Assembly (NCBI GenBank): GCA_035771165.1
Contig: JAWNZC010000344.1
Location: 795,001-859,000, forward strand
Origin: Paragorgia papillata
Taxonomy: Eukaryota > Cnidaria > Anthozoa > Scleralcyonacea > Coralliidae
Direction: 5' to 3'
DNA: 64,000 nucleotides
In this document: piece after piece, positions 27,707 to 61,363 of the stretch
How the letters are laid out: the number at the start of each line of letters is the position of its first letter
Numbering within the stretch: the stretch's first letter is position 1
The notes under the pieces: generated by a model
The model's input: the letters and a program-made list of their open reading frames with translations, nothing else
The model's database searches: none
What the model was told of the DNA's origin: nothing
Position numbers and translations under genes: made by a program

Positions 27707-28085
27707 CACCTCTGAAGACGTTGTTTCTGTTCAGCAAGGGCGGACATAAACAGCGTTTTTACTTTATTAATTTATCTATTTTTACTCTCGCTCATCCTTT
27801 TTACACACCCCCCCTTTTTACTCATCGACGGTATGAATAGCAAATGTCTTTCGCATCTCATTATCCATTTGTTATTCTTATTTTGCTTTGATTGGCTAAT
27901 TTTTCGCATCTCATTATCAATTTGTTATTGTCATTTTTATCTGATTGGCTTATTTGTGGTCACATGATTACCTTTCGTATATAAGCTCATTGTTTGTTTA
28001 CACTCTTTACGTTTCTCTCTGACGAGGGGCCTTCGCTCGAAACGTTAGATTCCTAGGTTCTCTGTTTCGGCAGCATATCTAACTT
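27707..28085 (+). mobile_element. PLE3 3' UTR and tail, interrupted by the giant element
   Basis: Non-coding tail matching the inverted copy at 26485. It contains CTGACGA, GGGGCCTTCGCTC and GAAACGT (28019-28045, hammerhead-like). It stops at TCTAACTT (28085) where the giant element begins. The remaining ~15 bases (ACTATATTTCGATT) lie at 61365-61378. Confidence 0.85.
28078..28085. other. Left target-site duplication TCTAACTT
   Basis: Identical to 61356-61363. The related intact PLE tail at 26485-26530 has TCTAACCT at this position once only. Confidence 0.9.
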
Positions 28086-28214
28086 ACCACTGTGAAGTAT
28101 GCACCACATTCAGCCTTCGATTCAGCCTTCGATTCGGCCTTCGATTCAGCCGTCGATTCAATTATCACATCTTATTACGAAGTTATCTCCATATTCATCA
28201 GGTGGTCGCTATTG
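28086..28214 (+). repeat. Left terminal inverted repeat, outer unique part
   Basis: Starts ACCACTGTGAAGTATGCACC. It has four 12 bp repeats of ATTCAGCCTTCG at 28108-28155, then a 60-base stretch (TATCTCCATATTCATCAGG) joining the satellite. Confidence 0.92.
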
Positions 28215-31200
28215 CAGAATATCATACAAAAACACAATTTTCTCAGGCGTTATTCTATAGGATTTCTTCAAATTAACATATCTTGTACAGAATTTCATGC
28301 CCTTTAATCTAGTATAAGTTTCCAGAGTGGCATAAACCCATGAACGACGCAGGCAAGCTTTAAACAAATAGCGGCGCGGCGTTATTTATACGACTGACGG
28401 ATGTTATGTTGTATATTTCAGATTTCCTCAGAAAAAGTACAAATTTCTCAGCCGCTATTCTATACGATTTTTTTAAATTTACATGTTATACAGAATTTCA
28501 TGCTCTTTAATCTAGTATAAGTCACCGGAGTGGCATAGACCCATGAACGACGCAGGCAAGCTTTAAACAAATTGCGGCGCGGCGTCATTAATACGACTGA
28601 CGGGGATTATGTTGTATATTTCTTATTATATCAGATATAAACACAAATCTCTCAGCCGCTATTTTATACGATTTTTTTTAATTTACATATGTTATACAGA
28701 ATTTCATGCTCTTTAATCTAGAGTAAGTCCCCAGAGTGGCATAGACCCATGAACGACGCAGGCAAGCTTTAAACAAATTGCGCCGCGCCGTCATTAATAC
28801 GCGCTGACGGCGGTTATGTTGTATATTTCAGATTTCTTCAGAAACAGTACAATTTTCTCAGCCGCTATTCTATACGATTTTTTTTAATTTACATATGTTA
28901 CACAGAATTTCATGCTCTTTAATCTAGTATAAGTCCCCAGAGTGGCATAGACCCATGAACGACGCAGGCAAGCTTTAAACAAATTGCGGCGCGGCGTTAT
29001 TAATACGACTGGTGGAGGTTATGTTGTATATATCATATTACATCAGATATAAACACAATTTTCTCAGCCGCTATTCTATACGATTTTTTTAAATTTACAT
29101 ATGTTATACAGAATTTAATGCTTTTTAATCTAGTATAAGTCACCAGAGTGGCATAGACCCATGAACGACGCAGGCAAGCTTTAAACAAATTGCGCCGCGG
29201 CGTCATTAAAACGACTGACGGCGGTTATGCTGTATATTTCAGATTTCCTCAGAAAAAGTACAAATTTCTCAGCCGCTATTCTATACGATTTTTTTTAATT
29301 TACATTTGTTATACAGAATTTCATGCTCTTTAATCTAGTATAAGTCACCGGAGTGGCATAGACCCATGAACGACGCAGGCAAGCTTTAAACAAATTGCGG
29401 CGCGGCGTCATTAATACGACTGACGGGGATTATGTTGTATATTTCTTATTACATCAGATATAAACACAAATTTCTCAGCCGCTATTCTATACGATTTTTT
29501 TTAATTTACATATGTTAAACAGAATTTCATGTTCTTTAATGTAGTATAAGTCCCCAGAGTGGCATAGACCCATGAACGACGCAGGCAAGCTTTAAACAAA
29601 TAGCGGCGCGGCGTTATTTATACGACTGACGGATGTTATGTTGTATATTTCAGATTTCCTCAGAAAAAGTACAAATTTCTCAGCCGTTATTCTATACGAT
29701 TTTTTTAAATTTACATATGTTATACAGAATTTCATGCTCTTTAATCTAGTATAAGTCACCGGAGTGGCATAGACCCATGAACGACGCAGGCAAGCTTTAA
29801 ACAAATTGCGCCGCGGCGTCATTAATACGACTGACGGATGTTATGTTGTATATTTCTGATTTCCTCAGAAAAAGTACAATTTTCTCAGCCGCTATTCTAT
29901 ACGATTTTTTTAAATTTACATATGTTATACAGAATTTCATGCTCTTTAATCTAGTATAAGTCCCCAGAGTGGCATAGACCCATCAACGACGCAGGCAAGC
30001 TTTAAACAAATAGCGGAGCGGCGTTATTTATACGACTGACGGATGTTATGTTGTATATTTCAGATTTCCTCAGAAAAAGTACAAATTTCTCAGCCGCTAT
30101 TCTATACGATTTTTTTTAATTTACATATGTTATACAGAATTTCATGCTCTTTAATCTAGTATAAGTCACCAGAGTGGCATAGACCCATGAACGACGCAGG
30201 CAAGCTTTAAACAAATAGCGCCGCGGCGTCATTAATACGACTGACGGATGTTATGTTGTATATTTCAGATTTCCTCAGAAAAAGTACAAATTTCTCAGCC
30301 GCCATTCTATACGATTTTTTTAAATTTACATATGTTATACAGAATTTCATGCTCTTTAATCTAGTATAAGTCACCGGAGTGGCATAGACCCATGAACGAC
30401 GCAGGCAAGCTTTAAACAAATAGCGCCGCGGCGTCATTAATACGACTGACGGATGTTATGTTGTATATTTCAGATTTCCTCAGAAAAAGTACAAATTTCT
30501 CAGCCGCTATTCTATACGATTTTTTTTAATTTACATATGTTATACAGAATTTCATGCTCTTTAATCTAGTATAAGTCACCAGAGTGGCATAGACCCATGA
30601 ACGACGCAGGCAAGCTTTAAACAAATTGCGCCGTGGTGTCATTAAAACGACTGACCGCGGTTATGCTGTATATTTCAGATTTCCTCACAAAAGGTACAAT
30701 TTTCTCAGCCGCTATTCTATACGATTTTTTTTAATTTGGATATGTTATACAGAATTTCATGCTCTTTAATCTAGTATAAGTCACCGGAGTGGCATAGACC
30801 CATGAACGACGCAGGCAAGCTTTAAACAAATTGCGGCGCGGCGTCATTAATACGACTGACGGGGATTATGTTGTATATTTCTTATTATATCAGATATAAA
30901 CACAAATCTCTCAGCCGCTATTCTATACGATTTTTTTTAATTTACATATGTTATACAGAATTTCATGCTCTTTAATCTAGAGTAAGTCCCCAGAGTGGCA
31001 TAGACCCATGAACGACGCAGGCAAGCTTTAAACAAATTGCGGTGCGGCGTTATTAATACGACTGGTGGAGGTTATGTCGTATATATCATATTACATCAGA
31101 TATAAACACAATTTTCTCAGCCGCTATTCTATACGATTTTTTTAAATTTACATATGTTATACAGAATTTAATGTTCTTTAATCTAGTATAAGTCACCAGA

Positions 31201-34200
31201 GTGGCATAGACCCATGAACGACGCAGGCAAGCTTTAAACAAATTGCGCCGCGGCGTCATTAAAACGACTGACGGCGGTTATGCTGTATATTTCAGATTTC
31301 CTCAGAAAAAGTACAAATTTCTCAGCCGTTATTCTATACGATTTTTTTAAATTTACATATGTTATACAGAATTTCATGCTCTTTAATCTAGTATAAGTCA
31401 CCGGAGTGGCATAGACCCATGAACGACGCAGGCAAGCTTTAAACAAATTGCGGCGCGGCGTCATTAATACGACTGACGGGGATTATGTTGTATATTTCTT
31501 ATTACATCAGATATAAACACAAATTTCTCAGCCGCTATTCTATACGATTTTTTTAAATTTACATATGTTACACAGAATTTCATGCTCTTTAATGTAGTAT
31601 AAGTCCCCAGAGTGGCATAGACCCATGAACGACGCAGGCAAGCTTTAAACAAATAGCGGAGCGGCGTTATTTATACGACTGACGGATGTTATGTTGTATA
31701 TTTCAGATTTCCTCAGAAAAAGTACAAATTTCTCAGCCGCTATTCTATACGATTTTTTTAAATTTACATATGTTATACAGAATTTCATGCTCTTTAATCT
31801 AGTATAAGTCACCAGAGTGGCATAGACCCATGAACGACGCAGGCAAGCTTTAAACAAATTGCGCCGCGGCGTCATTAATACGACTGACGGATGTTATGTT
31901 GTATATTTGTGATTTCCTCAGAAAAAGTACAATTTTCTCAGCCGCTATTGTATACGATTTTTTTTAATTTACATATGTTATACAGAATTTCATGCTCTTT
32001 AATCTAGTATAAGTCACCAGAGTGGCATAGACCCATGAACGACGCAGGCAAGCTTTAAACAAATAGCGCCGCGGCGTCATTAATACGACTGACGGATGTT
32101 ATGTTGTATATTTCAGATTTCCTCAGAAAAAGTACAATTTTCTCAGCCGCTATTCTATACGATTTTTTTAAATTTGGATATGTTATACAGAATTTCATGC
32201 TCTTTAATCTAGTATAAGTCACCAGAGTGGCATAGACCCATGAACGACGCAGGCAAGCTTTAAACAAATTGCGCCGCGGCGTCATTAAAACGACTGACGG
32301 CGGTTATGCTGTATATTTCAGATTTCCTCAGAAAAAGTACAAATTTCTCAGCCGTTATTCTATACGATTTTTTTAAATTTACATATGTTATACAGAATTT
32401 CATGCTCTTTAATCTAGTATAAGTCACCGGAGTGGCATAGACCCATGAACGACGCAGGCAAGCTTTAAACAAATTGCGGCGCGGCGTCATTAATACGACT
32501 GACGGGGATTATGTTGTATATTTCTTATTACATCAGATATAAACACAAATTTCTCAGCCGCTATTCTATACGATTTTTTTAAATTTACATATGTTACACA
32601 GAATTTCATGCTCTTTAATGTAGTATAAGTCCCCAGAGTGGCATAGACCCATGAACGACGCAGGCAAGCTTTAAACAAATAGCGGCGCGGCGTTATTTAT
32701 ACGACTGACGGATGTTATGTTGTATATTTCAGATTTCCTCAGAAAAAGTACAAATTTCTCAGCCGCTATTCTATACGATTTTTTTAAATTTACATATGTT
32801 ATACAGAATTTCATGCTCTTTAATCTAGTATAAGTCACCAGAGTGGCATAGACCCATGAACGACGCAGGCAAGCTTTAAACAAATTGCGCCGCGGCGTCA
32901 TTAATACGACTGACGGATGTTATGTTGTATATTTCTGATTTCCTCAGAAAAAGTACAATTTTCTCAGCCGCTATTGTATACGATTTTTTTAAATTTACAT
33001 ATGTTATACAGAATTTCATGCTCTTTAATCTAGTATAAGTCCCCAGAGTGGCATAGACCCATCAACGACGCAGGCAAGCTTTAAACAAATAGCGGCGCGG
33101 CGTTATTTATACGACTGACGGATGTTATGTTGTATATTTCAGATTTCCTCAGAAAAAGTACAAATTTCTCAGCCGCTATTGTATACGATTTTTTTTAATT
33201 TACATATGTTATACAGAATTTCATGCTCTTTAATCTAGTATAAGTCACCAGAGTGGCATAGACCCATGAACGACGCAGGCAAGCTTTAAACAAATAGCGC
33301 CGCGGCGTCATTAATACGACTGACGGATGTTATGTTGTATATTTCAGATTTCCTCAGAAAAAGTACAAATTTCTCAGCCGCTATTCTATACGATTTTTTT
33401 TAATTTACATATGTTATACAGAATTTCATGCTCTTTAATCTAGTATAAGTCACCAGAGTGGCATAGACCCATGAACGACGCAGGCAAGCTTTAAACAAAT
33501 AGCGCCGCGGCGTCATTAATACGACTCACGGATGTTATGTTGTATATATCATATTACATCAGATATAAACACAAATTTATCAGCCGCAATTCTATACGAT
33601 TTTTTTTAATTTACATATGTTATACAGAATTTCATGCTCTTTAATCTAGTATAAGTCACCGGAGTGGCATAGACCCATGAACGACGCAGGCAAGCTTTAA
33701 ACAAATAGCGGCGCGGCGTCATTAATACGACTGACGGGGATTATGTTGTATATTTCTTATTATATCAGATATAAACACAAATCTCTCAGCCGCTATTCTA
33801 TACGATTTTTTTTAATTTACATATGTTATACAGAATTTCATGCTCTTTAATCTAGTATAAGTCACCAGAGTGGCATAGACCCATGAACGACGCAGGCAAG
33901 CTTTAAACAAATTGTGCCGTGGTGTCATTAAAACGACTGACCGCGGTTATGCTGTATATTTCAGATTTCCTCACAAAAGGAACAATTTTCTCAGCCGCTA
34001 TTCTATACGATTTTTTTAAATTTGGATATGTTATACAGAATTTCATGCTCTTTAATCTAGTATAAGTCACCGGAGTGGCATAGACCCATGAACGACGCAG
34101 GCAAGCTTTAAACAAATTGCGCCGCGTCGTCATTAAAAGGACTGACCGCGGTTATGCTGTATATTTCAGATTTTCTCACAAAAGGTACAATTTTCTCAGC

Positions 34201-34330: not shown

Positions 34331-34380
34331 CAGTCGCGTATTGACGTGTATTGGTTATTTGCTCGCTGGGAAATTGTTTA

Positions 34381-38312: not shown

Positions 38313-41300
38313 ATGGTAAGTAATGAATTGTGAATTGAACCTTAAATTTGAAGGAATTCGTACGAACTTATATTAAAAAAAATTTTTTTTTCTTCTTATG
38401 GTAAGGGGTTTTCGAAAGTAAAGCACTTTCATGATGTTAACAAAATGGTGAAATCCATGATTGAATGTTCTGGTGACAAGACAGAAAGTTGGAGAAAGCC
38501 CCTTGGCTACTGGGGAAAGGTTGCTCTAAAATATGGTTTTCATAATAGTGTTTACAGACGAAAAGGCCTCTACATGGCATGGCGCCAGAACAAGGATGAT
38601 GTACAGGAAAAATATTTTGCTCTTGAAGCAGGTCGTGCTGCTAGAGCATTAGAGTCAGAAGGAGAGGTAACAACCTAGAAAGTTATTATAATAATATTTA
38701 CGTATATTGTCTAAAATTACAGAAATGACTAATTGCATGTTACATCAATAGAAATCTAACAGATTGTGCTTAAATAGCTTTTCAAGTATCTTATACTCTA
38801 ACAAAGCCAACGGCTAAAATTATAGACTAAAGCCGGTTTTCTACAAGGAGGAATTTTGCGCGCGGAGCGGAGTTTTTCTTTGTCTTTTCTAATTATAATT
38901 CCACCCGAGAAGTCACCAGACAAAGAAAATTTCCACTTCGCGCGCAAAATTCCGCCTCGTGGAAAACAGGCTTTACCGCATCGGGTTGTAATAACTGACA
39001 AATGAAATAATATCACGGCTACCTCGGTTTTCATTGTTCCCACAGGGACATTTAATCTCTAAATAACCTGATGCATAAAGATTAGGTAAGATTAGTAACT
39101 AATCATACCTAATCTTTACGCCAAAGTTCGCTTATGCATGTAATAACTATCAAATACATGAAGTGAACACTTATCGAATTCCCATCACAACTCAATAATT
39201 TATTCACTTTGAAGTTGTTGACTCCGCCAAAAGTGTTCTTGTTTTACTCTCCTTCTTCCTCGGAAACCGTAATATTACAAAGTGATAGCATGGCATTTCG
39301 GTTGATTAGTGATCAAATGTCCCTCAAGCCTCGGGAGGTTTAGTAGAAGTCCTCGGGACTTTTACTAAACCTTCCTCGGCTTTCGGGTACATTTAATCAC
39401 TATTCAACCTCAATGCCATGCTATGTATAGGTTAGTGACCAAAACCGAGGTCACAACGATGGTTATTAATCCCGAGGCCCGCAGGCCCGAGGGTAATAAC
39501 CAGCGTAGTGACCGAGGTTAAGGTCACTAACCGACTTCATTTATTCATGACACAGACGATATTTGTCGTTATTTAACAAAAAAATGGTATTCTAGACGTA
39601 GTTTTAAAGCGATATAGTAGGTCATTTAATATGCAAGGTCAATAACCTATTTATTAACCGCGGCACATCAAAGATAATTTATGCATGATAAACTAATATT
39701 ATAATAATAACATGACTTGAGGGAAATTAGCGATTAAATTTCCCGCAGCCGAGGAAAGGTTTGTGAAAATCCGAGGGCCGCAAGCCCGAGGACTTCTAAA
39801 AATCTACCCGAGGCAAATGGTATTAGTTTGTAATATTATGATCGCCGAGGAAAACTTTGAGAATCTTACCGACAGGAAATTTACACTGTTGATCAGAGAA
39901 GTTGCATCTAATAATTTTCCCGTGCATGTCGATGAGGGAAAATATATGCAATCGGGAAATTTAGGATTTCTTTGTCTTGTAATTTTCTCTCATCAACGAC
40001 AGTGCACGGGAAAATTAGAAGACAAAGGAAAAATTTCTCTCTTGCATGAGCAATGAGGAAAATACGAGGTTTACATTCCTTCGGAGAACAAAACGGAATC
40101 CGAGGCGATCATGGTATTACTTATAATTTCATAAAATGTTTCTGCTAAAACTATCGAAAAGGAGTTCACCACACGTGCCAGTCAACATGCAGGTGTCCCG
40201 GGGTCCAAGTCTACTAGTAAATATGGACCCCCGTTGGCGGATTTGGACCCCCCCCCCCTCCAAAAGTTAAATATATGTAGTGTGAACACAATAATATAAA
40301 CGAAATTCATAATAGCGAACAGTCTGAAGTTTTTTTGTCACTTTGTATTAGTGATAAAGAACACAAACCGTAAAATAGAAACCACCACCAGAGTTAGTAA
40401 TGCGATCTCCACGCTCTCCAGAGCACGGTGAAGAACGCTGGTGATTTATACGGTCGAGCTAACAGCGTATAGAATAAATAAGATATAATTCAGTTGCAAT
40501 GGGTAATGGATATACCAGGCGGGAAACGTAATTTAAAAATCAAAATCAATGTCTTCAAGTTTGGTGCGCTCTAACACTAAGCACGATGTATAAACCTAAG
40601 GCTAAGACGCGAATAAGTATTTCGTGCTCTTCAGATCATATGGTAACTTTACGTCTTAATAGGATGCGTCTTTGAGAATAGAGACTTATATTTGTCCGTT
40701 TATCTCACAAGTTTGTTCTATTTGTTCGCTTGCAAACTGACTAAAAATGTAATTAATAATAACACACCACCATGCATGTATATCAAAACACAGAAGTGAC
40801 TTTTTACATAGGTTCAGGGTTCCTATTGATAACAGTATTTAATTTATTGCTGAAGAGAATACTGTGACTAAAATCTATCTATCATCTTGGCCAATATCCC
40901 AACGCGTATCCGCTAATAGGTTTTTAACAAAAGCGATAGAAATGGCAATTAGCATTAGGACCAACGCGATTCCATGAATGCTTGTAAACAATAAGTGATG
41001 ACTCACCAGTAGTCTTGTGAAGCTATAAAACTGTTTCAGTGTCATTTATCTTTTGAACGTGAACCTAAACTATCCTCTCTGTTGTACGCAATATATATAT
41101 GGCTAAATTGACTGCGTACGAAGAAGTTTTTCATTATCTCCGTGACAACGAGTATCCCGATTTTTACACCAAAGACCAGAAGAGGAACTTGCGAAAAAGA
41201 TCCCACAAGTTTGTTTTGGAGAATGGTGTGTTGTTTTATACAGGATTGGACAGATTTTTGAATTTAGATGATGTTACTGGCAATAGAATTTTATTTGATG

Positions 41301-44300
41301 CATGTACGTCAACGAACCAAATTGAAAATGTTTTCTATGTTTTTTTATTCGCTATTGCAACACAATAAGCTCGACTATGTGGGGTTTATAAGTGGCTTTG
41401 GATATGAAAATTATTGAATGTAACATATTCATCGTTTTCTGGGTTTTGGGAATAAAAAATGTTTAAAAAGGGGGGTCCAAATCCGCTAAAGGGAGGGTCC
41501 GAATATACTGGGTGGTCCAAATCCGCTGTGACACAGGTATGAAATTTGCCAAACACCAAACTTTATGAACAGATTAACAGTGCGTCGTGGAGTGTTCCAT
41601 AATCAGAATAAAATTCGGTGCTGGGCTACAAGAAAACCTTTTTTATGCTTCGTCTAGCCTCGGCTTAAGCGAATTTGCTAAAGTCAAGCTTTGATTTTCA
41701 TAGCCAGGGAAAGCAGACTGTTCCTCGGCCGCTCTCTACCATACTTTCATAGTGGCTCTTAACAACGTTACAACATGTTGCCTGTTGTAACAGAATGTGT
41801 TTTGTAACCGTAAACCCAACTGCTGCATGAAAACATTTGAAAACATGATTTTGTAATAACAGTCAACTAGTTGGTTGATTATATATATTCTATTTATTTA
41901 GGCGTTAAATGACGGAATTGAACTGTTCAACTCTTTTGCAAGTCTAGACGACGAATTGGTATGCTATTATCTATTTTTCTTAATGAATTATTATTTATGT
42001 GTCTACTGCGCATAATCGGACTATTTAAACAGCGAATAGAAAGAACCGGACACGGTGTGCCTGTCATCTGGTCATTTCTTTTGATCATAGCTAATAGAAA
42101 CTAAATATGGTTTGGAAGCTACAAAAGTAATTGTTTTATGTTTTTGTTCAGGTTTATGTAAATTTGTGCACTTTCACGGTTACTTAACATATTGTGTTTT
42201 CTGTATAATGAAGCAATCATCCAATAGCAAAGTTTGAGATCAATCACTCAACCGCACTGTTTAAATATTAATAAACCTAAAACAAAGGATTTATGCACCT
42301 TCAGGTACCTTTCAACATGAAGCGTATAGCTTTTTTGTTAACCGCTTTAAATTGCCTATGAAACGATAATTAAGTTTGTCTTATTTGGAAGAACACTTAA
42401 AATTATAGAATAACATCTTTTGCAGGTTTTCGTTTCCTTGCTTCGTTCTTGAGATATTTCAGGTTGTTTGATATGCAAATTAAACATTTTGACGTCGTAA
42501 GGAGCATAGCATAATGAGCTATCGGAGAAGGTTAGATATCTTTTCTATTATCAAACCAAAATGAATTTGAATTCGAATGAAGCATGTGGACGTGTTTCAC
42601 CCACAACACTAAACATGTAGATTTTCAAGTGATTAATATATTTGATAATAGCAAAAATATATAACTTTTTCGATAACTCATGCACCTACGACGTCAAAAC
42701 CTGTAATTTGCATATCAAACAAAATAAAATATTTCAAGACCAAAGCAAGGAAACGAAAAAGTGCAAAAGATGTTACTTTATAATTTTAAGTGTTCTTTTA
42801 AATAAGATACACTTAAATTTCGTTTCATAGGCAATTTAAAAATTTAAATGTGAACGTACACAAGTGTTTACGTTTGCAAACATTCATTGGTAGTATTAAC
42901 AGTTTTGGTTACTAACTCTCTTAAACATTGAGTTAGGGGGAAGAGCGCATCTCTCCCAAATAGTTGGGCAAGTCAGATATTTTTGGACAAAAAGATGTTT
43001 TGGGCAACTGGTTTGCAATTTCATCATGTCAGTGCTTAAGTGTGTTTTACTGTAAGTTCTGTCGCCCATTTACGTGCTTTCAATTTGCAAAGTATACGAG
43101 TTAATTTAAGGTGGCTCCATACAGTTTCTTGAAAAACAGAAAATACAAGTTTGAGAGTCCAAAATACGTGATTAAACAATTCGGAAAAAGAATAAAACTA
43201 AATGTTATGCTTAGTTAAACAGACTGACAATCAAAAACTGTTACAAAATAAATAGCAACAGTTGTTGCTATGGCAACAATGACGTTTCAAAATGGCTGCC
43301 AGTATCCTTCAAACTAGTTTAATTCGAAAAAAACTTTGGTGACCCCCAATTTTTTTTTCATTTAAAACTTTTCTTGCAGTATGAGTAATCAATAGGTCGA
43401 TTTTAAAAAATTCGTAATTTTTTTTTTAAATTAACAAAAATTATTCGTTCTACAGAATTTTTTTTAAATCGGCCTATTGATTACTCATACTTCAAGAAAA
43501 GTTTTAATGAAAAAAAAATTGGGGGTCACCAAACTTCTTTTCGAATTCAATTAGTTTGAAGGGTAATTGGCAGCCATTTTGAAACGTCATTGTTGAAATA
43601 GCAACGACTGTTGCTATTTATTTGGAAGCAGTTTTTGATTGTCAGACTGTTTAACTATGCATAACATTTAGTTTTATTCTTTTTCCGAATTGTTTATGTA
43701 CGTGTTTTGGACTCTCAAACTTGTATTTTCCATTTTTCAAGAAACTGTGTGGAGCCACCTTAGGAAGAAATATCCTTTCAGAGATTCAATAATTTTTAAA
43801 CATTTCCGGGGGTGAATGCTTACTGACTTTCATTTTTGTCATGTTTCAACGAAAAAGTGCATGTTTTAACAAATATTTACTATAGTAAATGTATAGTCTA
43901 GCTACAAGGCTGCTGTTTAAATGACGTAGTATATATCACGTCATTATAATTTTCGAAAGTTATGTTTACTCATACATCTCCTACAAAAAATTGCCCTGCA
44001 CGCGCATATGCTATTTTATGTTAATATATCAGTGTTTAAAGCAAAATGTTTTATTATATTAGCTTTGTCATGACAAAATGTCATTAATTTAATTATGTAA
44101 TATGATATTAATTTAACTGTATATCTATGTATATAATATATGTCAATATTCCTATTAGGATTTTGAAAAGGATGGTCACGACATAAAAGAACAACATGAA
44201 GACAATGTGATCTGGATAAATAACGTAAGTTATAATAATGAACAGAGTAGTAATAATTTAAAATTACCCGCATACTACAGTACATGTATTAAGATTATAA

Positions 44301-47300
44301 GTTTAAATTGTAAATATTATAAAAATAATTGAAATAAAGAATCAGAATGCATTTAATCATCAAGAAACCATTAATTATTTAACAGAGAATGGGTGGTTGA
44401 AACATTTTGGGACTTTAAATTTTGCGCACTACTTAAAGAGGGGGCCTCTTAAATCATTAATAAGTTATTATTTTTTTAAAGTTCTTTGAAATATTCATAT
44501 TCACACTTGTATGCCAAGCAGTTTTAACTAATTTACCAATATTTTTGTTACTATTTTCACTATGAGGAATGACGATTGACTGTTATGAATTTATCATTTT
44601 ATCGGTAGGTTAAGTTATATAGTATGTCATCTTGTGGATGTTTCTGCTGTGGGAAAAAAACTTGTTTCTGTGAAATGTGGAAAGAGCAACTCGAGCTAAC
44701 CATTCATAGGAAACTCCTTAAAGTTATCAATATTTTATGGCATTGTAATTAATAGAACGGTAGGGGAGGGAGGGGCACTGAAATTATTTCGAATAGAATT
44801 GGACGTTCTTAAATATTTGAGTACCCGAAAGAAGAGAGCAATTTCTTACCTATCTCCTTCCCTCCGTTAAATAATCACCAGTCCCCAAAAGACACAATTT
44901 AAATAAATGACTCAGAACGTATAAGCATTAGAATTATATTCACTCAGCTGTTTTGGACTTGTTATTGTTATTGTTATTTTATGAAAAAACGAATGCAGAT
45001 AACAGAGCACATGCACCCGTGGATTGGCTTCAGTCACATAAACTTTCTAAAACCATATTTCATATCCGGTATTTTAAACATGCTATAATAGCGAATTCCA
45101 TTTCATCATGCACAAACAATTTAAACATCTCATTTTTAAACCTTTGCCCATCTTGGCACCTTACTAAGAGAATCATTACATTTTACTCTATTATATATAG
45201 GGGATCGGTTCGACAATTCCCATTGACAACGACCGTAGGGGCCGAGCGCATGAACATAAGATTGGTAAGGAAATTTTCGATAATGTTAATACTCATTGCA
45301 ATACGGTAGATAAAAATGTAGATGTTTTAAAATTGCAGTATGAAGATTTTCCTCCTCTAGAAACAGGTATAACAAATATTTCTGTGAGAAGAGTGTCGAA
45401 TGGAAAAGGGCACTTGCTCAAAGTATGCGTTCCAATTTCTAAAGAAAGCAAGTGTAGTTTCGGCCAGCAAGAAAACTCATCAAAAATTCGTCAAGAACTG
45501 CCAAAAACTGATACAAACAGCGAAAACGATGAAGATACCAATGAAAGTGGAGACAACGAAGATGATGAAGAAAGCGAAGAATTCCTAGGAAGCGAAATGA
45601 ATGAAGAATTTGAGGGAATTAGTGACAGCTCCGACGAAGATGAAGAGTTCGTTCAACATAAAGACGACGAAAACTACATGTATGAGGAAATCGATGAAAC
45701 TAGAGAAAGCGCTTATGACATAAAAAAAGAAGAAAAACTCGATCTAATTACAGAACAAGAGGAAAATGTGATTGTTGAAAAAAATACAGACAGCGAAAAT
45801 GATGAAGATCCCAATGAAAGTGGAGACAACAAAGAAAGCGAAGAAATCATAGAAAGCGAAACGAACGAAGAAATGGAAGGAATTAGTGACAGCTGCAACG
45901 AAGATGAAGATTTCGTTCAACATAAATACGGCAAAAACTATGAGGAAATCGATGTCAACGAACTTAGCTACAGCGAAGAAGCGATCGAAAGCACTGATGA
46001 CATCATAAGAGAAGAAAAACCCTTTATATTTACAGAACAACAGGAAAATATGGGTGTTGAAAAAAGTACAAACATCGAAAACGATGAAGATCCCAATGAA
46101 ATTGGAGACAACGAGGATGAAGAAGAATGTGAAGGAATCCTAGAACGCGAAATGAATGAAGAATGGGAGGTAATTAGTGATAGCAGCGATGAAGATGAAG
46201 ATTTCGTTCAACATAAATACGAGGAAAACTATGAGGAAATCTATGAAACTAGCGACAGCGAAGAAAGTAAAGAACACGATGAAATACCGGACGACAAACA
46301 TGTCGATGAACTCGAAGAAGAAGAGATCGAAAGCGCTGATGACATAAAAAAAGAAGAAAAAAAACTAGAAATAATTACAGAACAAAAGAAAAATATGGGT
46401 GTTGAAAAAAATAAAGACAACGAAGACGATAAAGAAATCGAAATAAAATTACAGAACGAGGATGAAGAACTGCAGGATAGAGTTAGGGAAAACAAAGAAG
46501 ACGACAACATCGGAAAAACTAAGAACGCCAGAAAAAGTGAGGAAGTCGAGGATATTAGCGACACAAATGAAAACGAAGATGTGACTATTAGAGAAAACCA
46601 TGATAAAGAGGTTGACGAAGCTATCAACATGGATGAAAATGTCCAGGAAGTTAGTTATACCAAAGAAAAGAAAAACGTCAAAGAAACTAAAAAGTTTACA
46701 AAAAATGAAAAACTCGCGGGAATTAGATACAACGAAGATGGAGAAAGTGGTGAAGGCGAAGATAGAGTAAGAGAGTCAAAAAGAGAGAGGCGTATGCCCA
46801 AAGTGTATACTCCTAACTACAATGATAACAAAGTTTATTGCTTCTGTCAACAGGAAAATATTTCGTGGTACATCTGCTGCGACATTCAAAAGGATGGATG
46901 CTTGCTCTATTATCACCCTAAATGCGTTGGCTTAGAATGGATAAAATCACCTGACAAAGCAGACAGGTTTAGCAACTGCGCAGATGGAAAATCATACAAA
47001 TGTCCATTATGTTCAAGTAAACAAGAATTAAAAAATCATCAGGAACTACAAAGAGGGAAACGTAAAAAGAAAGATGTACATCAAACGACGACAGAATGGA
47101 CAGAAGAACAAATCCCATATGGTGAATCTGCTGAGTCCACAGAGTTCACATTTGGAGAAACTCCAAAATCATTTTTCAGACAGACACCTCGCATTATACC
47201 CAGATTTCAAAGTAATCTGGATAAAATCTCTGATGTAACCTCAGAAGATGAAGACGAGAGTGTAGGTGATCCATCTGATGTTTGGTCCTTCCATACTAAT

Positions 47301-50300
47301 GATATAAAAACAACACCGACTATGAGCGATGAATGCATATCTGAATATGAGTTAACAAACGTAAAAGACGAAAATGTAATAGACGAAAAACAATGTAGCG
47401 AAAATGAAGATATGTATTTTAATTCTGAATATATAGATGACATTGAGATTACTTTATCAGATTGTGAACACATTGATAATGTCACAGCGTCATTCACAGA
47501 AACCAACAATGATGTTGCGTCACAAAACCCGGCAAAACCACCAGTGTCTTTTGAGACAATTAGTCGAATGATGGACTGTCCAAACTTACCCAGAAAGGCA
47601 TTCTTCGTAGCCGATATACCACACAAAGCTCAATTCCAATTAAGCGACTATGAGTGGGACAGAATTAAACCAAGTATATTACAACCAAATAGACTGCAAC
47701 CTGTCTGGACGGACATAATGGCTTGCCACATGGCAAAGTCCAACGATTCTTGTACGTTTCGCTTTAAAAGACATTTTATCCAAAAGGATGGGTCCCGCAA
47801 GAGAACGAATGTATTTGCTTTTACAGCATCTGGACTTTGTATTTTTGAAGATTGTTCTTGTTCTTTCAAGTTAACTATGAGAAAAGACCAGTTCGTAGAT
47901 AAACTGATAACGGTTACATACCAGGGATCAGTGAAACATGCCACTGGTGAGAGACATTCTCGCTTCATCCAGAACGATGTAAGGAAAGCAATGGTTAATC
48001 AATTTCATAAAGGAACTGATAAACCTTCTAAAGTTTATCAAGAGGTTAAAGAGGAGTTGTCAAGTAATGCTAAAGCGTCTGGAAACAGAACTGGTTGTGG
48101 AGTTCAGGCTACTACGATAAGAAAGATTGCTAGCGAAGGTCATCAAAAATCATATATGGACAAAGATATGGTTCGCTCCCTTGATATAGTCCGCAAGCTT
48201 TTGATAGAACAAGAAAGTTCACGGGAAATCCCACCAAAAGTGGTGCAAGGATTCGTTCATATGATTTCCTATTATCCTTTGATTGTTTATATGTGGACAG
48301 AAGACCAGGTACGTCTCTGGCATGAGCTGTCCGAAAAAGATGTTTCTTATTTAGACGCGACAGGAACCATCATTAGAAACCACGATGAAAAAAGGGTTTT
48401 ATATTATGCACTTGTTCTTCGTCATCCTAGTGAGGAAAACCCCCCATTACCAATAGCAGAAATGATCACAAGTGACCACAGTGCCACAAACATACGCAGT
48501 TTTCTTGAAAGATTCAAACGAGATGAATCGAAGGTATTCAATGGGCGTGTAACTACTCCACGACAATTAAACACAGACTATTCTAAAGCAATAATTTTGG
48601 CAGGACTAAAAGTATTTAACAACGAATCACTGGAAACGTTTCTTAATCGAGCATTCCTGATATTGCATAAAGACGCAAACGAACAAGAATTAAGTCTCAT
48701 GATCCCACATGTTGGATGCAGTCATTTTATGAATATTGTACATAGGAATATGATGGCAATATCCCGGGCTAAACGCAACGTAAGTGAAAATCCCGAAACC
48801 GAATCTAACAAAGTATGGTACCGTTTTAACATGTACGCCGTGTCTTTGTTGGTCAACGCAAGAACGTTGGATGAATTTGATACGATATTAGAAAACATAA
48901 TTATCTCCTTACAGAGCGAAAATCAAAATAAATTGGTACGAAATTCCTTCAACTACATTTGGCAAAAAATACATAGCATGGAAAAAGACAAGTTTGATTT
49001 ATCTTCGATTGAAACGGCTATTAAGGTTGAAAAAGATCTTACAAGTGATGCGGATACATCGGCATCGTTAAAAAACAACCCGTTTGAAAAGCATTTCAAC
49101 AAAATAATACAGCGTGTGGAAGAAAATATATCTAATGCAACAAACGAGCGCAAAAGCGGTAAAGCAAACCGTAGTTATTGTCCTCAATCCTTTCAATTTA
49201 TTGTATCTTACCTGCCAGAAATGCCACTGTGGTCTTGCGTCTTGCTAGGATCTCTTGATCGTTACAGAAAAACGAATGAAGTGAAAGCTCAAAATGTATC
49301 AGACAATCATCCCTACCTGTTATTTACATCGGCCAACGCAAAATCAGAAGGTTACATTGAAGGTGTCATGAGACATCTTAAGCAAGAAGATTTCCCTGGA
49401 AAAAAACGTCTTAGACCAGATGATTTTGTATCGCAAAATTATAAGCGAATTAGAAGAAGAGTAAACGATTTTGCTGATCGAATGCACAGCAATCTGCGAC
49501 CCAAACCAAAGAGATCGTATCAAAAACGAAAGAAAAGTAATCGTAAACCACCTGCATCTACGAAAATAGAAAGCGAAAAACAACCAAAAAACGAAAGCTA
49601 TCACATGGCTCAAGAGCCATGGGGAAAGAAAGATCCAGATACCCCGAAAACAAATCCAAAAATTGGGCAGTTTCAGCGATCGCCCACCGTGCCACTTAGT
49701 AAGACACCAGACGTTAAAAAAAGGGGAACACGTACAAATAAGAAATTATCGCCTCGATCATCAGGTTTTTTTGCTTTCCTACAAAAAAATAGGAAAAGGT
49801 TATATCGTCGATATCGGAACATGTCAACCGTATGTAAAGAAGCGTCCACCCTGTGGAAAGACTTACCCGAAGATAAGAAAAAAATGTACGTGAGAATGGC
49901 AGGTAACAAAACCGATATTGGGTTTAAACCAAGCAATAAAGAAACTCGTCCAAAACGCCGTTCAACTATCGATCACTCTGACACAGCAGCGAAAACTGTA
50001 CAGCAGGAAAGCAGCAAAAGTTACACAGCGAACATTTATAATTACAGAGGGTTACAAAACAAGGGTAATGAGTGTTGGCTAAATTCATTGATACAGTGCT
50101 TTAACTCTTTGCCTCTCAAGCGACTACTGGCTTCAGACGAAGGATCATGTTTTTTTCTCCAGTGGTTTCTGTTTTAATTAAAACACTACGGAAACTTGAT
50201 GAAAACCCACACATTCCTTTTTATCCTGGCGAATTGCATAAAATTTTTCAGCGACAATTCCATTATACTCCAGGGGCACAAAATGACATTCATGAAAGTT

Positions 50301-52146
50301 TCACATGTTCATGTTCCGGTGGTGGCAGATACGACAACGCAGTAGGAAGTCATTTTCAAGGCGCAATTCAATATACAAAGACTTGTTCAGAATGTAATAA
50401 GGCAGAAGACGGTAATCCGGAAACCTTTTCAAACCTATTTTTGCATTTACCAAACAACATTAAGCATATAGAGAAAAGTATAGCAGACAGCCTCAACGAT
50501 AGTATTGATATAATGTGTTTCAGATGTAAAAAACAGACGAAACATTACAGGAAAGGAAGTTTTGTGTTGCTACCTGAAACGTTGGTAATAGCGTTCAAGC
50601 GATTCGAACACGTCGCTGGACATGGCAATAAGAAACACTCAAATGTTAAACTAGCATCTGAGATTGAAATAGTAGGAAATAGACCGATTCGATACAGCCT
50701 GAGTGCCTGTTCATTACACCATGGAGTACAGCTTCATAATGGACATTATACGGCATTAGTATTTAAAAATAATAAAGTTATAGAAATTGACGATACAATT
50801 ATTACAGATGTTTCTAGAAATTGGCAGAAGCGGTCTTCAAAGACAGTTTACTTGGCCTTTTTTAGCAAAAAGGACAACTCAGACACTGATGTTTTTGCAG
50901 ATGAAAGAGAGTGCAAGAAAACTGATAATTACGAAATATCGGAAGACCAGGAAGATGTAAAAGAGGAACCTGTCGAGGAGAAAACCAAAAAAAAGCGGAC
51001 TGAAAAAAAGGAAAAGAAACCAAAAACAGAAGAAAATAAAACTTGCCAAACAGACGGCGGTATAGAATATATATGGGATATTTCGTGCAGAGATTCAAAA
51101 CTTTGTGAGTTTAGAGATTTTGGTTATGACCTTTATGGAAGAGACTTCAAAACGTTCGAGTATCCAGTTAGTAATAAAAGCTACGAATTGGAGCATCCAG
51201 GATGGCTTAATGATAGTATTGTTGATGCGTACTTGAAATTATAACGAACATATTGTCAGAGAAGGGTGTAGAGGTGTTTCCATTTAATACCTTTATTTTC
51301 CCGCATCTACGCAATTTAGTATCACGAGAACGCAGCGACTCTTTCTACACTCTAATTTCAAGATTTTTTCGGGACATAAATTTTGAGTCATATGATTGTC
51401 TTGTGATTCCCATTATTTCTAGAAACGGAGAGCATTGGAGTATTGTGTATATTGATGTTTGGAAACAAACAATTCATTATTATGATCCAATGCACGCAGG
51501 TATACAAAATCTAACAGCGATTAAACTAATCAAATTCTATTTTGAACAGCTTTATGAATTTAGATCATGCGAGGTAGATTTTGGGTCAAAGAGACTGGTG
51601 ACCGCATTTGACATATCCTGGGGAAAAACATTTCCCTCACAGAACGATTATTCAAGTTGTGGTGTGTACATACTGATGTACATAAGTTCAAAACTCGGAG
51701 AACTAAATGTCGATTTCTCGAAAGTCAGCTCGAAAGAAATAAGGAAAATGATTGCCGAAGAGCTGTTAAGGAACAAGAAATGTATAGCAGTTCCTGAGAT
51801 TCCGCAAATGGAGACTGAATACGTGCGAGAATGTACCATACCTACACGCTACAAGCAAAAAATAGGGGAAACAGTGGCATTGCGATGCCAATCTTACGGA
51901 TCTTGTCCAAAATCGTATAGATGGATATTTAACAATATGATTGTATCTTTACAGCAGACTTACAACTTCAAATTAACTCGTGAGAAAACAGGAAAGTATA
52001 CTTGTCAGGTCAAATATGACGATGGTGATATTGTGACATCATCAAAATGTGAAGTTGAGTGTGTAACATCTGCAGATATTGGTAAGAATAAAGAGGAAAT
52101 TATTGAGACTTTTAAAGATAGAATAAACAATTTTCATGGTAAATGA
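38313..52146 (+). CDS. Giant-element transposase fused to PHD, HMG, USP, Ulp1 and Ig domains
   Basis: Exon 1 contributes only the ATG (38313-38315). Further exons are 38406-38666, 41902-41958, 44159-44224 and 45201 onward, all with AG/GT borders and phase 0. The long exon encodes, in order: 3.5 acidic repeats of ~95 residues (45510-46420); a PHD finger (46830-47025, KVYCFCQQENISWYICC to YKCPLCSS); and a DDE core with SYLDATG (D at 48354), LNTDYSKAI (D at 48576) and GCSHFMN (C and H at 48717, 48723), the C/D-H mark of the MULE/hAT/P group. Next come an HMG-box-like region (49758-49905), a USP domain (GLQNKGNECWLNSLIQ, Cys at 50073; HNGHYTALVF), a Ulp1 domain (EHWSIVYID, YYDPMH, SQNDYSSCGVY) and an Ig-like domain (51840-52070). 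There is a -1 frame change at T7 (50150-50156) and another at about 51240. The predicted length is about 2,400 residues. The third catalytic residue (E) is uncertain. Confidence 0.82.
38829..38985. repeat. Hairpin element
   Basis: TAAAGCCGGTTTTCTACAAGG and TTTGCGCGCGGAGCGGAG pair with CTTCGCGCGCAAA and GTGGAAAACAGGCTTTA. Confidence 0.7.
39286..39535. repeat. Two adjacent hairpin elements
   Basis: 39286-39427 pairs ATAGCATGGCAT with ATGCCATGCTAT around CCTCGGGA words. 39430-39535 pairs GTTAGTGACC with GGTCACTAAC around a CCCGAGGCCCGCAGG core. Confidence 0.7.
39908..40016. repeat. Hairpin element
   Basis: CTAATAATTTTCCCGTGCATGT pairs with CAGTGCACGGGAAAATTAG, with ATGAGGGAAAAT and ATTTTCTCTCAT inside. 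Confidence 0.65.
40193..41534. mobile_element. Nested transposon (~1.34 kb) with ~70 bp inverted ends
   Basis: The left end GTGTCCCGGGGTCC to GCGGATTTGGACCCCCC is matched by the inverse of GGGGGGTCCAAATCCGC to GCTGTGACAC on the right. GCGGATTTGGACC recurs subterminally. It encloses the ORF at 41099. I could not fix a target duplication. Confidence 0.6.
41099..41368 (+). CDS. Integrase H2C2-like N-terminal fragment or exon
   Basis: 89 codons starting MAKLTAYEEVFHYLRDNEYP. The block FYTKDQKRNLRKRSHKFVLENGVLFY followed by RILFDAC resembles the segment leading into the zinc-binding H2C2 domain of Ginger/gypsy-type integrases. The expected H-x-G-H part is missing. A strong donor (GATGCAT|GTACGT) lies within DAC, so the ORF may be the first exon of a spliced gene. 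It sits inside the nested element and may belong to it. Confidence 0.45.
   Translation: MAKLTAYEEVFHYLRDNEYPDFYTKDQKRNLRKRSHKFVLENGVLFYTGLDRFLNLDDVTGNRILFDACTSTNQIENVFYVFLFAIATQ
42347..42840. repeat. Foldback element, ~490 bp
   Basis: TTTAAATTGCCTATGAAACG at the left is matched by the inverse at 42840. Homology extends through GAACACTTAAAATTAT, CATCTTTTGCA, TTTGATATGCAAATTA and GACGTCGTA. The arms are about 210 bases. Confidence 0.8.
43110..43759. mobile_element. MITE with ~310 bp inverted repeats, TTAA-type site
   Basis: TTAA-GGTGGCTCCATACAGTTTCTTG at the left; CAAGAAACTGTGTGGAGCCACC-TTAG at the right. The arms match over almost their whole length (for example TTGGGGGTCACCAAA near the centre). 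It lies within an intron of the large gene. A TTAA-like duplication suggests piggyBac- or Kolobok-type mobilisation. Confidence 0.8.
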
Positions 52147-55450: not shown

Positions 55451-55623
55451 ACCAAAGCCTTTCTTTATCTTGGAAGTATTTTGTTTGTTGATAGGCAGCT
55501 TCTTCACGAAATTGCTACCAAAATTTCCAAAGCAAGCTCGTCCTTTGGCAGAGTCACTGAGAGACTTTCAGTACAGCGGGATTGGAAAAACCATAGCATC
55601 AAGCTAGCGGACTATTATATATG
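55451..55623 (+). pseudogene. LINE reverse-transcriptase C-terminal fragment
   Basis: The plus frame reads FLYLGSILF, then LHEIATKISKASSSFGRVTE, then a stop at 55621-55623. YLGS followed by EI...KISKAS-x-FGR is the conserved end of many LINE-type RT proteins. About 57 codons survive. Confidence 0.6.
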
Positions 55624-57617: not shown

Positions 57618-60600
57618 GATTAAAGCGCATGAAATTCTGTATAACAAATCGTATAGAATAGAGGCTGAGAAATTTGTGTTTATATCTGATGTAATATGAT
57701 ATATACAACATAACCTCCGTCAGTCGTATTAATAACGCCGCGCCGCAATTTGTTTAAAGCTTGCCTGCGTCGTTCATGGGTCTATGCCACTCTGGGGACT
57801 TATACTAGATTAAAGAGCATGAAATTCTGTATAACATATGTAAATTAAAAAAAATCGTATAGAATAGCGGCTGAGAAATTTGTGTTTATATCTGATGTGA
57901 TAAGAAATATACGACATAATTCCCGGTCAGTCGTTTTAATGACGCCGCGGCGCAATTTGTTTAAAGCTTCCCTGCGTCGTTCATGGGTCTATGCCACTCT
58001 GGGGACTTATACTAAATTAAAGAGCATGAAATTCTGTATAACATATGTAAATTAAAAAAAATCGTATAAAATAGCGGATGAGAAATTTGTACTTTTTCTG
58101 ACGAAATCTGAAATATACAACATAACATCCGTCAGTCGTATTAATAACGCCGCGCCGCAATTTGTTTAAAGGTTGCCTGCGTCGTTCATGGGTCTATGCC
58201 ACTCTGGTGACTTATACTAGATTAAAGAGCATGAAATTCTGTATAACATATGTAAATAAAAAAAAATCGTATAGAATAGCGGATGAGAAATTTGTACTTT
58301 TTCTGAGGAAATCTGAAATATACAACATAACATCCGTCAGTCGTATTAATAACGCCGCGCCGCAATTTGTTTAAAGGTTGCCTGCGTCGTTCATGGGTCT
58401 ATGCCACTCTGGGGACTTATACTAGATTAAAGAGCATGAAATTCTGTATAACATATCTAAATTTAAAAAAATCGTATAGAATAGCGCCTGAGAAAATTGT
58501 ACCTTTTCTGAAGAAATCTGAAACATACAGCATGCATAACCGCCGTCAGTCGTTTTAATGCGCCGCGGCGCAATTTGTTTAAAGCTTGCTTGCCTGCGTC
58601 GTTCATGGGTCTATGCCACTCTGGGGACTTATACTAGATTAAAGAGCATGAAATTCTGTATAACATATGTAAATTTAAAAAAATCGTATAGAATAGCGGC
58701 TGAGAAATTTGTGTTTATATCTGATGTAATAAGAAATATACAACATAATTCCCGGTCAGTCGTTTTAATGACGCCGTGGCGCAATTTGTTTAAAGCTTCC
58801 CTGCGTCGTTCATGGGTCTATGCCACTCTGGTGACTTATACTAGATTAAAGAGCATGAAATTCTGTATAACATATGTAAATAAAAAAAAATCGTATAGAA
58901 TAGCGGATGAGAAATTTGTACTTTTTCTGAGGAAATCTGAAATATACAACATAACATCCGTCAGTCGTATTAATAACGCCGCGCCGCAATTTGTTTAAAG
59001 GTTGCCTGCGTCGTTCATGGGTCTATGCCACTCTGGGGACTTATACTAGATTAAAGAGCATGAAATTCTGTATAACATATCTAAATTTAAAAAAATCGTA
59101 TAGAATAGCGCCTGAGAAAATTGTACCTTTTCTGAAGAAATCTGAAACATACAGCATGCATAACCGCCGTCAGTCGTTTTAATGCGCCGCGGCGCAATTT
59201 GTTTAAAGCTTGCTTGCCTGCGTCGTTCATGGGTCTATGCCACTCTGGGGACTTATACTAGATTAAAGAGCATGAAATTCTGTATAACATATGTAAATTT
59301 AAAAAAATCGTATAGAATAGCGGCTGAGAAATTTGTGTTTATATCTGATGTAATAAGAAATATACAACATAATTCCCGGTCAGTCGTTTTAATGACGCCG
59401 TGGCGCAATTTGTTTAAAGCTTCCCTGCGTCGTTCATGGGTCTATGCCACTCTGGTGACTTATACTAGATTAAAGAGCATGAAATTCTGTATAACATATG
59501 TAAATAAAAAAAAATCGTATAGAATAGCGGATGAGAAATTTGTACTTTTTCTGAGGAAATCTGAAATATACAACATAACATCCGTCAGTCGTATTAATAA
59601 CGCCGCGCCGCAATTTGTTTAAAGGTTGCCTGCATCGTTCATGGGTCTATGCCACTCTGGGGACTTATACTAGATTAAAGAGCATGAAATTCTGTATAAC
59701 ATATATAAATTTTAAAAAATCGTATAGAATAGCGCCTGAGAAAATTGTACCTTTTCTGAAGAAATCTGAAACATACAGCATGCATAACCGCCGTCAGTCG
59801 TTTTAATGCGCCGCGGCGCAATTTGTTTAAAGCTTGCTTGCCTGCCTGCGTCGTTCATGGGTCTATGCCACTCTGGGGACTTATACTAGATTAAAGAGCA
59901 TGAAATTCTGTATAACATATGTAAATTAAAAAAAATCGTATAGAATAGCGCCTGAGAAATTTGTGTTTATATCTGATGTAATAAGAAATATACAACATAA
60001 TTCCCGGTCAGTTGTTTTAATGACTCCGCGGCGCAATTTGTTTAAAGCTTGCCTGCGTCGTTCATGGGTCTATGCCACTCTGGCGACTTATACTAGATTA
60101 AAGAGCTTGAAATTCTGTATAACATATGTAAATTAAAAAAAATCGTATAGGATAGCGCCTGAGAAAATTGTACCTTTTCTGAAGAAATCTGAAACATACA
60201 GCATGCATAACCGCCGTCAGTCGTTTTAATGCGCCGCGGCGCAATTTGTTTAAAGCTTGCTTGCCTGCGTCGTTCATGGGTCTATGCCACTCTGGGGACT
60301 TATACTAAATTAAAGAGCATGAAATTCTGTATAACATATGTAAATTAAAAAAAATCGTATAGAATAGCGGCTGAGAGATTTGTGTTTATATCTGATATAA
60401 TAAGAAATATACAACATAATCCCCGTCAGTCGTATTAATGACGCCGCGCCGCAATTTGTTTAAAGCTTGCCTGCGTCGTTCATGGGTCTATGCCACTCCG
60501 GTGACTTATACTAGATTAAAGAGCATGAAATTCTGTATAACATATGTAAATTAAAAAAAATCGTATAGAATAGCGGCTGAGAAATTTGTACTTTTTCTGA

Positions 60601-61230
60601 GGAAATCTGAAATATACAACATAACATCCGTCAGTCGTATTAATGACGCCGCGGCGCTATTTGTTTAAAGCTTGCCTGCGTCGTTCATGGGTCTATGCCA
60701 CTCTGGTGACTTATACTAGATTAAAGAGCATGAAATTCTGTATAACATATGTAAATTAAAAAAAATCGTATAGAATTGCGGCTGATAAATTTGTGTTTAT
60801 ATCTGATGTAATATGATATATACAACATAACATCCGTGAGTCGTTTTAATGACGCCGCGGCGCAATTTGTTTAAAGCTTGCCTGCGTCGTTCATGGGTCT
60901 ATGCCACTCTGGGGACTTATACTGGATTAAAGAGCATGAAATTCTGTACAACATATGCAAATTTAAAAAAAATCGTATAGAATAGCGCCTGAGATAATTG
61001 TGTTTATATCTGAGGTAATCTGAAATATGCAACGAACTCCCGTCAGTGGTATTAATAACGCCGCGCCGCAATTTGTTTAACGCTCGCCTGCGTTTTTCAT
61101 GGGTCTGTGCCACTCTGGAGACTTATACCAGATTAAAGAGCATGAAATTCTGTACAACATATGTAAATTTGAAGAAATCCTATAGTATAGCGCCTGAGAA
61201 AATTGTGTTTTTGTATGATATTCTGCAATA
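57618..61230 (+). repeat. Right satellite array, about 17 copies, inverted relative to the left array
   Basis: Same monomer as 28215-34330 but in reverse orientation (GTTTAAAGCTTGCC, GCGTCGTTCATGGGTCTATG). A 624-base three-monomer higher-order unit repeats at 58367, 58991 and 59615. Lengths are about 205-208 per monomer. Confidence 0.95.
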
Positions 61231-61355
61231 GCGACCACCTGATGAATATGGAGATAACTTCGCAATAACTGCGATAATTGAATCGACGGCTGAATCGAAG
61301 GCCGAATCGAAGGCTGTGAGTCGAAGGCTGAATGTGGTGCATACTTCACAGTGGT
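61231..61355 (-). repeat. Right terminal inverted repeat, outer unique part
   Basis: The inverse of 28086-28214, including the 12 bp repeats (61280-61333). It ends GCATACTTCACAGTGGT at 61355. Confidence 0.92.
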
Positions 61356-61363
61356 TCTAACTT
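61356..61363. other. Right target-site duplication TCTAACTT
   Basis: Identical to 28078-28085. It is followed by TACTATATTTCGATT, the rest of the PLE tail. Confidence 0.9.

Follow-up and report, generated by a model that had tools for sequence, protein, structure and literature searches.

A 33-kb transposon with inverted satellite-array ends and a multi-domain transposase-like gene in Paragorgia papillata

Structure of the element and its insertion site

The DNA analyzed here is a stretch of 64,000 nucleotides from Paragorgia papillata (assembly GCA_035771165.1, contig JAWNZC010000344.1, positions 795,001 to 859,000 of the forward strand), referred to below as the window. It contains one transposon of 33,270 bp (28086–61355), in which two inverted ends, each composed of a terminal domain and a satellite array, enclose an interior with a long multi-domain gene. 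The element and its target are made up of the following parts.

26522–28083, unstranded: target of the insertion, a Penelope-like element remnant with a GIY-YIG-like open reading frame (ORF) and an inverted arm on either side of it, of which the distal one is interrupted by the transposon
28078–28085, unstranded: left target-site duplication, TCTAACTT (exact match)
28086–28233, plus strand: left terminal domain of 148 bp, with which the right terminal domain, when inverted, shares 95.3% identity
28234–34330, plus strand: left satellite array of a 205-bp unit, about 30 units (TRF, 29.7 copies with 92% matches; 30 anchors)
34350–57600, unstranded: interior region, parts of which recur in internally deleted copies (blastn of other copies)
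45201–52146, plus strand: multi-domain transposase-like gene and longest coding region, divided among three open frames that overlap (45201–50177, 50105–51244 and 51226–52146)
57646–61206, minus strand: right satellite array, the 205-bp unit inverted, 17 units (TRF, 17.2 copies; 17 anchors)
61207–61355, minus strand: right terminal domain (alignment to the left domain)
61356–61363, unstranded: right target-site duplication, TCTAACTT (exact match)

The outermost 35 bp of the left and right ends are exact inverses, and the terminal domains enclose a 12-bp minisatellite (28108–28160 on the left, TRF). The long terminal inverted repeats measure about 6.2 kb on the left and 3.7 kb on the right. Outside the two arrays, anchors of the 205-bp unit were represented in the whole window by only one weak 18-base partial match, at 5049. 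The sequence TCTAACTT has exactly two occurrences across the window, which start at 28078 and 61356 and abut the two ends of the element; a script gave the length of the target duplication as exactly 8 bp.

The arms of the target (26522–26946 and 27658–28083) are inverted, 426 bp long and 96.5% identical, and the GIY-YIG-like ORF (26963–27706; Pfam E = 0.0079, below the cut-off) sits between them. The arms and this below-threshold match suggest the label Penelope-like. When the flanks of the transposon were joined, 52 of 56 aligned positions were identical to the intact inverted arm of the split element. The right-side part of this match is 15 bp only (14 of 15 identical), after which an AT repeat begins.

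An initial annotation of the window had proposed a single transposon with satellite-array termini, exactly inverse outer ends, a perfect 8-bp target duplication and its own multi-domain transposase gene, inserted by transposition, rather than by inversion or an assembly join, into a Penelope-like tail. All of its coordinates hold. The borders are confirmed by the inverse ends, the duplication on both sides and the split target, and the remaining proposals agree with the inverted 205-bp arrays, the gene at 45201–52146, the joined-flank alignment and the duplications found at many further sites. The sequence it took for a second copy of the tail does provide the matching intact sequence, but is really the other arm of one Penelope-like element.

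Copies of the family in the host genome

The host assembly (617,864,297 bases in 473 contigs) was searched for the ends of the element. The terminal 175 bp gave 40 full-length matches at 97–100% identity plus one short partial match (best 40 of 791 candidates). The exact 30-bp end occurs 208 times, 91 forward and 117 reverse, while the reversed-pattern control gave no occurrence. Among 100 end places listed, adjacent pairs at most 100 kb apart comprised 25 inward pairs, 5 outward pairs and 1 on one strand. All 25 inward pairs were examined for target duplications together with eight more, including the window copy.

A perfect 9-bp duplication was found by script in 18 of these 33 pairs, a perfect 8-bp duplication in five (the window copy, L019, C12a, C63 and C86) and a 9-bp duplication with one mismatch in three (L021, C11 and C218b), so that 26 of the 33 carry a duplication of 8–9 bp. 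Three pairs (C23, C225 and C3) lie in AT repeats and are uninformative. The last four comprise L014 and the 3.1-kb C87 copy, whose insertion sites are already counted under L019 and C37, and C124 and C229, which are without a duplication. The A+T content of the perfect 9-bp duplications is 76%. Mispairing the flanks between copies gave one 8–10-bp match among 870 cases, at the duplicated C37/C87 site, and 23 of 20,000 random positions matched. With 18 perfect 9-bp pairs against five perfect 8-bp pairs, the duplication rule of the family is 9 bp. A rule of 8 bp was thereby ruled out, and the 8-bp duplication of the window copy is a minority outcome in the family. The initial annotation had predicted that other copies would have the same ends, different 8-bp duplications and variable satellite numbers; run on the assembly, this test was passed, except that the usual duplication is 9 bp and not 8.

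Satellite blocks in inverted orientation could also result from inversion, duplication or assembly error with no transposon involved. Satellite arrays misassemble easily, and the evidence here is assembly sequence. Nevertheless, the border duplication is exact, the target is split with a matching remainder, and the 8–9-bp duplications of the 26 pairs lie at different sites. A simple inversion or assembly join was rejected on the duplications at many sites, and the probability of any non-transposon origin is negligible.

Copies with perfect duplications range from 855 bp to 69,809 bp. The biggest copy with an unambiguous duplication is C105 (69,809 bp, CACCAAACA), and the next giant copy is C218 (35,455 bp, TCCCAGCTA). 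Several places represent the same event: L014 is the L019 insertion and the 3.1-kb C87 copy is the C37 insertion, both in duplicated sequence with small indels, and L012 and L017 have a common right flank. The same or nearly the same insertion flanks were also seen at two places for C37/C87, C86/C425 and C250, reflecting either a segmental duplication or haplotypes that the assembly left unmerged.

Smaller copies include internal-deletion derivatives. L010, L012 and L017 have arrays and only pieces near 34.4–34.9 and 53.4–53.5 kb, L021 retains 53.8–57.0 kb, and L013, L016 and C322 consist of nothing but arrays and ends. In the 855-bp copies no array is visible. Anchor counts vary across copies from 0–1 up to 47 within 10 kb, a variant unit in copies such as L009 being missed by the anchor.

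In the left array of the window copy, units 15–16 are identical to units 20–21. Units were also compared across 21 arrays of at least five units each (337 units). The closest unit lay within the same array for 259, in the array at the opposite end of the element for 22 and in a different element for 56. Closest matches are thus mostly within the unit's own array, with some in the partner array, which points to local unequal exchange as the driver of array growth and to some exchange between ends.

The multi-domain gene, its relatives and other features

The gene reads, from its N-terminal side, as an acidic region, a PHD-like finger, a DDE-like core, an HMG-like box, a ubiquitin protease, a SUMO protease and an Ig domain.

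45500–46700, plus strand: acidic, internally repeated N-terminal region (D+E 30–48% per 50 amino acids; internal repeats)
46782–47024, plus strand: PHD-like zinc finger, first pair C-x-C (phmmer against PDB chains)
47547–49505, plus strand: predicted DDE transposase core, 653 amino acids open, with candidate residues D 48354, D 48576, H 48723 and E 49347
49755–49910, plus strand: HMG-box-like segment (PF00505, E = 0.0064, below the cut-off)
50037–50860, plus strand: ubiquitin-specific protease (USP) domain (UCH, PF00443, E = 7.7e-16), its Cys box in the first frame and the remainder in the second
51283–51756, plus strand: Ulp1/SENP SUMO-protease domain (PF02902, E = 1.7e-13; SENP1, E = 1.6e-9)
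51859–52056, plus strand: C-terminal Ig domain (PF13895, E = 5.7e-8; MALT1 among the PDB Ig chains matched)

Since the longest relatives are single predicted proteins, the three frames of the window copy are read as the result of two frame breaks (near 50.1–50.2 and 51.2 kb), either real or assembly-made. An acceptor-like site immediately ahead of 45201, together with the N-termini of the relatives, suggests that a start exon lies farther upstream. These relatives (P0001, P0003 and P0005–P0007; 1825–1984 amino acids) have the domain order of the window protein, and four others (P0002, P0004, P0008 and P0009) are shorter or cut. The PHD-like finger gave weak phmmer matches to PDB chains of partner of snf (Pps, E = 0.0011), Death-inducer obliterator 1 (0.0042–0.0049) and YNG1 (0.013); the Pfam PHD model found no match in the window protein, and a hand-written PHD pattern gave none at all. 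An HMG domain (PF09011) lies above the cut-off in P0007, and Pfam shows no HMG box in P0005. The USP Cys and His boxes are present in the window copy and in all nine relatives. The Ulp1 D and C motifs are present in the window copy and six of the nine, the other three ending earlier or being without Ulp1. The Ulp1 H pattern was detected in the window copy and three of the six Ulp1-bearing relatives, and by eye HW is there in P0003, P0006 and P0007.

The core of the window protein is 52–56% identical to those of the nine relatives. Its residues D270, D344, H393 and E601 are invariant across 11 aligned proteins, including one fish protein at 24% identity. The motif ahead of E is C-x-x-H in fish relatives and C-x-H in the window clade; the Mutator DDE core has C/D-x2-H between the second D and E. 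Neither the window protein nor any relative scanned was matched by the MULE (Mutator-like) profile, and NCBIfam returned for five proteins one weak unrelated match only. Wider matches of the core were to fish proteins, several of them with C-terminal Ulp1 and PHD, to Oopsacas minuta, to an OTU-bearing protein and to further contigs. No relatives were found in scans of viral contigs and genome contigs. A tree of 36 of the 61 rows, the 25 left out covering less than 420 amino acids of the core, placed the window protein and the nine USP-bearing proteins in one clade with 100/100 support. Among distant relatives of the core, P0028 has an OTU domain (Pfam) and P0059 a ubiquitin-protease-like tail that was recognized by eye only, with Pfam support absent; the transposase family of these two possibly gained deconjugases repeatedly.

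Zisupton (KDZ) transposons carry an Ulp1 domain. Their 8-bp duplications (PMC12730594) equal that of the window copy, and KDZ elements of Ectocarpus, like its EnSpm and Sola-1 elements, can exceed 30 kb (PMC12477816). Against this identity, the duplications of the family are mostly 9 bp, and no KDZ or CxC Pfam match was found in the proteins scanned. A Zisupton element was rejected on these two counts and is very improbable.

In the host genome, the core gave 57 matches in 24 clusters, two of which are 38-residue fragments. Three distant clusters at 27–35% identity (C440, C106 and C199) suggest that further families of such transposases may be present. Among the host-genome matches, the full 653-residue core is open in the window copy only. 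Both gene-bearing copies that were followed outwards have inverted 205-bp arrays on both sides: in C267 these are still running at 36.5 and 91.5 kb of the contig, and in C413 they reach from about 145.6 kb past 196.5 kb. The stretches covered ended inside the arrays, before the terminal domains.

These distributions bear on the possibility that the ends and arrays are moved by a separate, conventional Mutator transposase, the large gene being cargo captured in one lineage. The gene is missing from most copies read, the MULE profile found 114 places in the same genome (best 150 of 303 candidates), some with long open frames, and Mutator elements tend to pick up host gene fragments (PMC6446971). 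Nevertheless, the gene stands in 24 clusters, with 205-bp arrays flanking both of those followed, and all 114 listed MULE places are more than 5 kb away from any core match. The invariant D-D-H-E residues and a broad family of the gene's own in fish and Oopsacas would not be required of a captured host gene. A cargo origin is therefore considered unlikely.

The interior of the window copy also holds palindromic sequences resembling miniature inverted-repeat transposable elements (MITEs).

38828–39532, unstranded: cluster of short palindromic, MITE-like sequences (self-blast)
42346–42840, unstranded: palindromic (MITE-like) sequence, TTTAAA flanking 42352–42834 on both sides (self-blast)
43107–43762, unstranded: palindromic (MITE-like) sequence with 304-bp arms, 91% identical (self comparison)

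A palindrome related to the 42.3-kb type is also found within copies L011 and L026. Elsewhere in the window, an ORF at 19010–19504 (plus strand) matches PF12012 (DUF3504, E = 8.1e-10), a domain typical of Crypton-like recombinases. At the left edge, two inverted copies of an approximately 800-bp repeat (1–788 and 1965–2731) share 89% identity, and a 189-bp tandem repeat (21479–21893) overlaps an ORF at 21500–22291. Rfam and tRNA scans gave no match.

Relation to known transposons and proposed mechanism

The composite inverted ends and the duplication length place the element in the foldback type, with Mutator/Rehavkus as the nearest transposase superfamily. With the foldback class it shares a terminal domain with tandem repeats in variable number and duplications of 8–10 bp (26 of 33 pairs); with Mutator it shares a duplication length within 8–11 bp and long terminal inverted repeats. 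Since the MULE and transposase profiles miss the core, the element is described as working like a Mutator-type foldback element, without assignment to a superfamily.

Among foldback elements, Tetris of Drosophila virilis is described with terminal domains, tandem repeats of about 220 bp and 8–10-bp duplications; its ends reach 1.7 kb, and no transposase-encoding copy is known in that account (PMC4079207). Tm1 of Meloidogyne has composite ends with 13–15-bp repeats and 9-bp duplications (PMC3169594). The present family resembles both in its composite inverted ends, variable repeat number, 8–10-bp duplications, gene-less copies and local array expansion. Unlike Tetris, it includes copies of up to 69.8 kb and an element with a 7-kb multi-domain gene. 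Ising's composite transposable element of Drosophila, with mobile units spanning hundreds of kilobases between foldback elements, is a precedent for such size in combination with foldback ends (PMC6431247). There, host DNA lies between separate foldback elements, whereas the present case is one element with a gene of its own and uninterrupted satellite ends.

Rehavkus, a Mutator relative, is described as having one ORF, a PHD finger with the transposase, inverted ends of 26–400 bp, a minisatellite before the 3′ end and a 9-bp duplication (PMC6446971). Going by that description, the likeness lies in the PHD finger (weak matches here), minisatellite, inverted ends and 9-bp duplication; the USP, Ulp1 and Ig domains of the window protein are unmentioned for Rehavkus in the available part of the source. 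MULEs have 8–11-bp duplications and long inverted ends (PMC6446971), some carry Ulp1, as in hydra, lancelet and plants (PMC2836005), and those of arthropods measure 1.4–10 kb (PMC13359780). The family is like them in duplication length, long inverted ends and Ulp1, and unlike them in being missed by the Pfam MULE profile.

Galileo, of the P superfamily, has very long, internally repeated ends whose repeats hold extra transposase binding sites in vitro (PMC3688188); its transposase has a THAP domain, and no result links Galileo to this family. Ulp1, OTU, PHD and C19 peptidases accompany several transposases, including Mutator, and Ginger1 transposases occur as fusions with Ulp1 or OTU, in some cases also with PHD (PMC2836005). 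Neither the Gypsy-integrase-type core of Ginger1 nor the KDZ core of Zisupton was matched here.

Tandem-repeat ends, duplications of this length, and PHD and Ulp1 in transposons are thus already known. The initial annotation went too far in stating that no nameable family fits, as foldback ends and the Rehavkus combination of PHD finger, minisatellite and 9-bp duplication are precedents. The unusual points are the size of this self-contained element, a protein combining USP, Ulp1 and Ig domains, and a transposase lineage that profiles miss. No published description of the element was found in the open-access literature, Repbase being outside the search.

At many sites the family has left scars like those of cut-and-paste insertion; a gene lies between its ends, and its arrays change in length. 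Taking identity and mechanism together, the window element is very probably an autonomous-type copy of a high-copy, foldback-type cut-and-paste family most like Mutator/Rehavkus. Several observations weigh against this interpretation. Two of the 33 pairs, C124 (19.4 kb) and C229 (9.4 kb), have no duplication, and in eight of 20 10-kb stretches (L012, L017, L020 and L024–L028, outside the 33 pairs) no second end was seen inside the stretch. Only in the window copy were the gene, both ends and the duplication seen together, and this gene has the two frame breaks; no start exon was found for it. The contigs of the 69.8- and 35.5-kb copies, which are known by their ends and duplications, showed no gene cluster in the core search. 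No Pfam transposase model matched the core, either of the window protein or of the scanned relatives, and the profile of the core matched no solved transposase, one chance match being obtained in the PDB profile search; DDE chemistry is therefore predicted from residue spacing and invariance. Lastly, the terminal domain and the consensus of the 205-bp unit have no common word of at least 8 bp, so that a transposase site common to both is not visible.

Under the autonomous foldback interpretation, the terminal domain and the 205-bp units would both contain sites bound by the gene product, so that each end might collect many transposase molecules, by analogy with the in vitro behavior of Galileo. 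The transposase would pair the ends even when these are tens of kilobases apart, cut them and insert the element with a stagger of 9 bp, less often 8 bp. The PHD-like finger and HMG-like box may aid chromatin choice and DNA bending, and the USP and Ulp1 domains may remove ubiquitin and SUMO, either from the transposase itself or from silenced chromatin on the arrays. Unequal exchange, both inside an end and from one end to the other, would lengthen and shorten the arrays, and the shorter, gene-less derivatives would be mobilized in trans by the same protein.

A broader reading can be offered tentatively, as possible rather than probable. The core may represent a DDE superfamily or a deep Mutator branch, missed by Pfam and NCBIfam and present in fish, Oopsacas and the host, that fuses repeatedly to chromatin readers and ubiquitin/SUMO proteases (Ulp1 with PHD, OTU, or USP with Ulp1 and Ig). 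The satellite ends would then be multi-site synapsis platforms that allow units of up to about 70 kb to move, and the deSUMOylase/deubiquitinase would counter silencing.

Because Pfam and NCBIfam gave no recognition here, profile-based repeat annotation may miss a broad transposase family. One assembly supplies insertions with recognizable duplications, deletion derivatives, and array-only and gene-bearing copies of a single family. This family ties together three questions that have been studied separately: the dispersal of satellite DNA, the pairing of distant ends in huge DNA transposons and the recurrent acquisition of ubiquitin/SUMO proteases. If the broader reading is true, units of up to about 70 kb would move whole, dispersing satellite DNA through the genome.

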